DNA of 52,893 bases from Bacillota bacterium (GTDB lineage: Bacteria > Bacillota > Negativicutes > CTSoil-072), in the NCBI GenBank assembly GCA_017889545.1, contig JAGFZV010000021.1, positions 1 to 52,893 on the forward strand, given 5' to 3'. The position numbers were made by a program, and so were the translations under genes. The number at the start of each line of letters is the position of its first letter. Positions within the stretch are counted from its first letter, which is position 1. This document shows positions 17,005-30,758 of the stretch, one piece after another. Under the pieces are notes generated by a model, which saw only the letters and a program-made list of their open reading frames with translations, was not told where the DNA came from and did not search any database.

Positions 17005-17228
17005 AAAAAAAGACTTATCACCCACCAAGGGGCGAAAGTCTTACTCCCGCGGTACCACCCTAATTTAATACTCTCTTTTCCTATAACGGGGAAAGCCGTC
17101 CAGCCTACACAGAAATTTCTTTCAGCTTGGATACTCAAGAGCGAACTTCAGCTAGGTTCCTTCGGCGCCGCTCTCAATCTCCGGCGGCAATCCTCCCTGT
17201 ATAAAGACATCCTCGCTTACTCTCTCTA
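17005..17228 (-). promoter_or_regulatory. T-box leader (tRNA-Phe sensing) of pheST
   Basis: The minus strand carries the T-box core AGGGTGGTACCGCGGG (17046-17061). It is followed by a terminator stem (17011-17042) and a U run (about 17004-17010) just before pheS. A stem I-like region with GAGAGTAAGCGAG begins near the 5' end, and a candidate specifier TTC (Phe) is at 17143-17145. Uncharged tRNA-Phe should stabilise the antiterminator and switch on pheST. A possible promoter TTGCAA-N18-TATTAC spans 17234-17263. Read-through from the yqzL promoter is also possible. Confidence 0.92.
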
Positions 17229-17254
17229 TCATCGTAATAATAAAGACATCAACA

Positions 17255-30544: not shown

Positions 30545-30722
30545 TGGAAGGGAGCACTTTTTAAGTGCTCCCTATTCCGATACAATTCACATTGTACGCT
30601 TCACGCTTAACGCGTGTTTAACCCTTCTATATTCAATTGTGGTTCCTCTTTCCGTGCCGTCGTGATGAAACCACCCCCTTATCTTGGGAGAAACACCCTG
30701 TGTTTCAATCATCTTTTCTTTC
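30545..30722 (-). ncRNA. structured RNA: candidate small RNA or riboswitch-like leader
   Basis: Downstream of a strong promoter (30730-30758), about 175 bases contain six consecutive hairpins: 30690-30706 (7 bp), 30674-30690 (5 bp), 30639-30674 (6-7 bp, long loop), 30602-30616 (5 bp), 30581-30596 (6 bp) and 30550-30572 (9 bp, gggagcact against agtgctccc). The last looks like a terminator but has a poor U tail. No ORF fits. I do not recognise a known riboswitch or 6S/SRP/tmRNA consensus in it. It lies 5' of the TRAP receptor gene in the same direction, so leader or independent RNA are both possible. Confidence 0.5.
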
Positions 30723-30729
30723 TGTCTTT

Positions 30730-30758
30730 ATTATAACTTAAATTATCTTAATTTTCAA
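30730..30758 (-). promoter_or_regulatory. strong promoter overlapping the 3' end of the M20 hydrolase gene
   Basis: TTGAAA (30753-30758), a 17-base spacer and a perfect TATAAT (30730-30735) on the minus strand. The -35 contains the stop codon of the upstream gene. It drives the structured RNA region and perhaps the TRAP operon. Confidence 0.78.

Follow-up and report, generated by a model that had tools for sequence, protein, structure and literature searches.

A probable stand-alone structured RNA family with a self-occluded ribosome-binding-like site, represented by a copy upstream of a TAXI gene

Results

A recurrent RNA element downstream of an M20 gene

The element at 30545-30758 (minus strand) of the window, by which we mean the whole 52,893-nucleotide stretch analysed here, probably belongs to an undescribed family of structured RNAs that stand alone and occlude their own ribosome-binding site, rather than being a sensor dedicated to the TAXI gene downstream. 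A stand-alone family is favoured because related RNAs occur in about 24 genomes of nine families, the promoter accompanies 26 of 30 copies, hairpins H4 and H5 covary and the ribosome-binding-like site is kept, and also because the copies have no common neighbour, often face a convergent downstream gene and are missing from TAXI and M20 relatives. The promoter, the motif sequences, the pairing and the independence from neighbouring genes were established by comparing sequences between genomes. The sequence-only reading of this DNA had named an independent small RNA as one option, and the recurrence of the promoter, the hairpins and two sequence motifs in nine families without a common downstream gene supports this option. 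Judged from Rfam and the open-access literature, the family looks undescribed.

Promoter and predicted fold of the window copy

The minus strand carries the promoter TTGAAA-N17-TATAAT at 30758-30730; it agrees with the consensus at 11 of 12 positions and overlaps the stop codon TGA (30757-30755) of the M20 gene, which is of the hydantoinase/carbamoylase type according to NCBIfam and scores above the cut-off of an allantoate amidohydrolase subfamily. Judged by the promoter position, transcription is expected to start near 30722-30724 (minus), and the TAXI gene lies on the same strand as the RNA element, about 210 bases downstream. Promoter-like matches in the region as a whole are at chance level (5 versus 4.1 +/- 2.2 expected). 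The homologues described below carry the same hexamers with a spacer of exactly 17 bases in 26 of 30 copies (27 were counted, less one internal to locus L160), where 0.016 would be expected per 260 bases, and the bases 3' of their -10 hexamer often read AAAGACA; the promoter suggested earlier at the M20 stop is thus confirmed and conserved. In another locus (L104), the region 0-300 bases downstream of an M20 homologue contains in succession a promoter-like TTGACA/TATAAT, a short reading frame and a hairpin that resembles a terminator and has a U-run, possibly representing another small transcript.

The segment 30545-30722 folds at -56.7 kcal/mol, compared with -36.8 +/- 3.6 for shuffled sequences (z -5.5; 0 of 200 shuffles as good), and six hairpins were predicted, the same number as read from the letters before. 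Since z is only -2.75 once the last hairpin is removed, H6 holds much, not all, of the folding signal; a 50-nt segment containing H6 gives z -7.1, and the 200 bases from the last hairpin to the TAXI gene show no excess structure (z +0.8). On the minus strand, H1 (30690-30706, GAAACAC-AGG-GUGUUUC) and the weak H2 (30675-30689, UCCC/GGGG) were not found in homologues. An extended Shine-Dalgarno-like site, GGGGGUGGUUUC (30667-30678), is complementary to the 16S 3' end when G-U pairs are counted, and in H3 (30639-30674) part of this site is paired with GGAACCAC just 5' of motif B (CCACAAUUGAAUAUA, 30628-30642), which is conserved and unpaired downstream of CCAC. H4 (30602-30616, CACGC/GCGUG) keeps its pairing while its sequence is free, and it is followed by H5 (30580-30597, GUACAAU-GUGA-AUUGUAU) and H6 (30546-30578, inner stem AGGGAGCACUU/AAGUGCUCCCU). 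The final stem, previously given as 9 bp, is indeed present and measures 11 bp. H6 is terminator-like, and its U-tract in the window is weak (UUCCAUUAU), so that it is absent from the terminator scan list and the 3' end of the window RNA is uncertain.

The Rfam 15 covariance models, including T-box, 6S and the known riboswitches, matched neither the window element nor its counterpart in 18 homologous loci, in agreement with the earlier remark that no known riboswitch class could be recognised at 30545-30758. Elsewhere, a T-box leader (RF00230, 100.8 bits) was found at 17025-17241 (minus) of the window, immediately preceding a gene that reads as phenylalanyl-tRNA synthetase alpha chain, and in locus L136 (2503-2610, +) the model of the molybdenum/tungsten (Moco) riboswitch family scores 31.9 bits, below its gathering score of 36.

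Homologues in nine families

A plain DNA search among 100 relatives found nothing, and a covariance model from a single sequence was therefore used. This model, R1, was made from the window sequence alone with its predicted fold and was then applied to 380 genomes belonging to the class, which we infer to be Negativicutes from the named relatives of the TAXI protein. R1 matched six genomes of genus g6 (E 1e-6 to 3e-5) and two of g28, and the aligned matches had the same promoter and common blocks; R2 did not confirm two further R1 matches, in L138 and L010, and these were taken as chance. R2, for which nine sequences were combined, the window copy among them, matched all eight g6 genomes (E about 1e-20 to 1e-22, values that are not independent for copies in its building set), three of the nine genomes of g28, the window and additional lineages. 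The exact pattern ACAATTNNATA-N20-50-TACAANNNNNNTTGTA, derived from members already known, was found once each in 15 of 380 genomes, including one match without the other features (L175, rejected as a member), and its reversed control gave 0. A later model, R3, run on 40 selected genomes, added g40 genomes (now five of five) and members in f22, f24 and f19; some additions were weak (E 0.02 to 0.76), with most of the anatomy present on inspection. The total thus obtained is about 24 genomes in families f1, f6, f9, f19, f22, f23, f24, f26 and f27. In a 299-genome sample of the phylum, R3 with stricter filters matched only the window itself. The window copy scores modestly (2e-11 with R2 and 4e-6 with R3, both of which include it), and neither a repeat nor a second copy was found in its own genome. 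Genome G073 has a second copy (L160, 1547-1612 on the RNA strand) that keeps H5 and has a seemingly degraded H6 and promoter; its H3 has turned into a long, nearly perfect stem of about 19 bp.

Covariation in the 3' hairpins

In an alignment of 29 copies, 86% of the H4 and H5 cells were paired, compared with 76% after shuffling, and 45 versus 18 cells were changed on both sides. The covariation score, whose size is inflated because the alignment was fitted to the model and the copies are related, reached 0.240 versus 0.116 +/- 0.011 in shuffles (0 of 500 as high), and moving the partners by one to three columns gave at most 0.097; this slide control and independent folds of H4 agree with the result in direction. 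A lack of covariation in homologues, which the sequence-only reading had regarded as speaking against a functional RNA, was therefore not what we found, H4 and H5 together lying above 500 of 500 shuffles. H4 stays paired in every lineage apart from the main g6 copy, where it is weak or lost. H5 reads GUACAAU/AUUGUAC in the family, with 99.5% of cells paired over 28 distinct sequences and three pairs changed on both sides. Reading the GTACAAT palindrome as a DNA operator was not favoured, as the length of its loop is variable (4 to 5 bases) and the palindrome is part of a series of transcribed hairpins.

H6 is a clear terminator with a U-run in several lineages (for example L176, L178, L189 and L193) and is absent from the second g6 copies (g6b), where the RNA continues into a small ORF. 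These second copies (L161, L162, L163 and L165, about 1630-1830 on the RNA strand) run without H6 into an ORF of about 60 residues, MARE...SDLFS..., which reads as a membrane protein. At the end of L181 (g29), a similar ribosome-binding site follows H6.

The ribosome-binding-like site and its occlusion by H3

Across copies the extended Shine-Dalgarno-like site reads GGGGUGRUUYC, and motif B reads CACAAYNNNATA. As a search of the assembly yielded no 16S 3' end, duplex energies were calculated with a generic 16S tail; they were -19.2 kcal/mol for the window site and -13 to -22 for nearly all copies, compared with -8 to -19 kcal/mol for the listed genes of the window. In many copies H3 pairs the site with the bases directly 5' of motif B, and the partner varies by lineage, being AACCAC in the window and in g6, CGCC in L176, and UCAAUGGAA in f22 and f24; in L160 the pairing forms a long, almost perfect stem, and for g28, g40 and g29 a different fold is predicted here. 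When partners were swapped between lineages, with one copy per lineage, own partners did better than swapped ones (p 8e-5). In L167 (genome G050), tandem repeats of GGGGTGATTCCATTG, each with a short similar ORF behind it, lie about 100-290 bases upstream of the core.

Short reading frames behind the site

At the usual distance 3' of the site, the codon is UUG or GUG in g40, f22, f24, f19 and g6b; at the same position the window has AUC and the main g6 copy AUU, and a canonical start codon is absent there. The earlier statement that no ORF fits has to be qualified: the element contains a 41-aa ATG ORF (30712-30587, minus), without a match in Pfam or NCBIfam, and many relatives have a tiny ORF behind the site, which the window shares but with AUC at the start. 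A possible remnant ORF of 19 codons with AUC at its start, read from the sequence and unproven, lies at 30607-30666 (minus).

In g40 a 33-codon frame follows the site, its start alternating between UUG and GUG at constant length. Its pN/pS is 0.13-0.91 (mostly 0.3-0.7, median about 0.43), while of the other two frames one is mostly above 1 and the other mixed (0.5 to 1.7), and this pattern supports translation of the peptide in g40. The values for f22 (0.67) and g6b (0.25 to 1.26) are near neutral. Peptides compared between lineages are not alike and motif B is read in different frames, and coding was rejected as a general explanation since frames and peptides are not common to the lineages. 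The second g6 copies enter a small ORF without a terminator and the g40 ORF appears to be under purifying selection, so some members appear mRNA-like. On the simplest history, the ancestor would have been a dual-function or tiny-ORF RNA; the window and g6 lineages, perhaps also g28 and f27, would have lost the ORF by decay and retained the promoter, motif B, H5 and H6.

Gene context and the relation to TAXI and M20

Gene names in the surroundings were read by eye from the sequences, with no family search. By these names, the RNA stands between a divergent MarR-type gene and a convergent gene in g6; near a MarR-type gene or hydrogenase genes in g28; directly downstream of a MetQ (NlpA lipoprotein)-type gene on the same strand in f9, f22, f24 and f26, the second g6 copies also being near a MetQ-type gene; before a glycerate-kinase-like gene in f19; and before an I42-inhibitor-like gene in L176. 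Contexts differ between families, no downstream gene is common to the loci, and several lineages have the next gene encoded on the other strand.

The sequence-only reading had proposed a ligand-sensing leader of the TRAP operon and advised collecting homologous intergenic regions upstream of TAXI operons. Eighty loci with close TAXI proteins were collected, and neither blastn nor R1 found a convincing copy of the element among them, the best R1 match being L010 (16.9 bits, E 0.017), which R2 did not confirm. The region upstream of the closest TAXI relative (79% identical) is unrelated to the element, as are those of the next two, and a conserved TAXI-linked leader was rejected. The same holds for an M20-linked element, as M20 relatives do not carry it downstream. 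The expectation that the element would reveal the TRAP substrate is not borne out.

Discussion

On the model that we propose, the RNA would be transcribed from its own sigma-70 promoter and would present a strong ribosome-binding-like site partly locked in H3, followed by single-stranded motif B, H4, H5 and H6. Opening of H3 would expose the site to 30S subunits, and the ancestral outcome of 30S binding may have been translation of a very short ORF. The start codon of the window lineage appears to have eroded to AUC, which makes the RNA itself the more likely active product. Four readings remain, namely a trans-acting RNA, a small mRNA for a peptide, an RNA that binds 30S subunits and a leader read through into TAXI, and for the window we favour the trans-acting RNA.

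If the RNA were a small mRNA, it would serve to make a peptide of about 20-35 residues, with the hairpins acting only as control of the ribosome-binding site and as 3' UTR. The UUG or GUG codons at the usual distance in g40, f22, f24, f19 and g6b argue for this, as does the 33-codon g40 ORF with pN/pS mostly 0.3-0.7; however, the peptides differ between lineages, motif B changes frame, f22 and g6b are near neutral, and AUC or AUU stands at the start position in the window or g6, so that we consider it unlikely. Preservation of the site where a canonical start codon is missing (the window and g6) may mean instead that the family includes RNAs that encode nothing and base-pair with the 16S rRNA 3' end, H3 switching their binding to 30S; we give this only a small chance.

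A cis-acting riboswitch or attenuator, in which a ligand or condition permits transcription through H6 into the TAXI operon, would suit the strand, the distance of about 210 bases, the weak U-tract of H6 and the related RNA directly before a small ORF in g6b and apparently also in g29. Yet none of the close TAXI relatives has the element, other genomes carry it before unrelated or convergent genes, and the interval from H6 to TAXI is without structure, making this the least likely of the four for the family and improbable as an account of the element; the poor U-tract of the last hairpin makes read-through into the operon possible in this one genome. That the M20 gene simply ends in ordinary terminator hairpins next to a promoter-like match, both by chance, is scarcely credible: promoter-like matches by themselves are at chance level and the last hairpin supplies much of the folding signal, but homologues away from M20 genes share the promoter, the motifs and the covarying hairpins. 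We retain the stand-alone RNA family as the best explanation.

Few structured RNAs of Negativicutes appear in the literature searched, and the family adds a well-defined predicted transcription unit with covariation, its unusual feature being the self-occluded ribosome-binding-like site. Open-access literature on small or structured RNAs of this class yielded only motifs tied to other genes, among them the ldh2 and gltD motifs of Negativicutes/Selenomonadales, which lie upstream of Ldh_2 or gltD genes (PMC8632094). These two are likewise structured RNA candidates of the same class or its orders, but they have a fixed downstream gene where the present family has none, a distinction drawn from their descriptions (PMC8632094). 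The T-box leader (RF00230) is also a multi-hairpin RNA, but the element has no T-box match. A parallel in kind may be the general class of dual-function bacterial sRNAs, such as SR1 and SgrS, to which we know of no sequence relation. Like them, the present family would consist of small, structured RNAs transcribed from a promoter of their own, and some relatives also carry a short ORF; it differs in its conserved, extended ribosome-binding-like site, which is occluded by a covarying hairpin.
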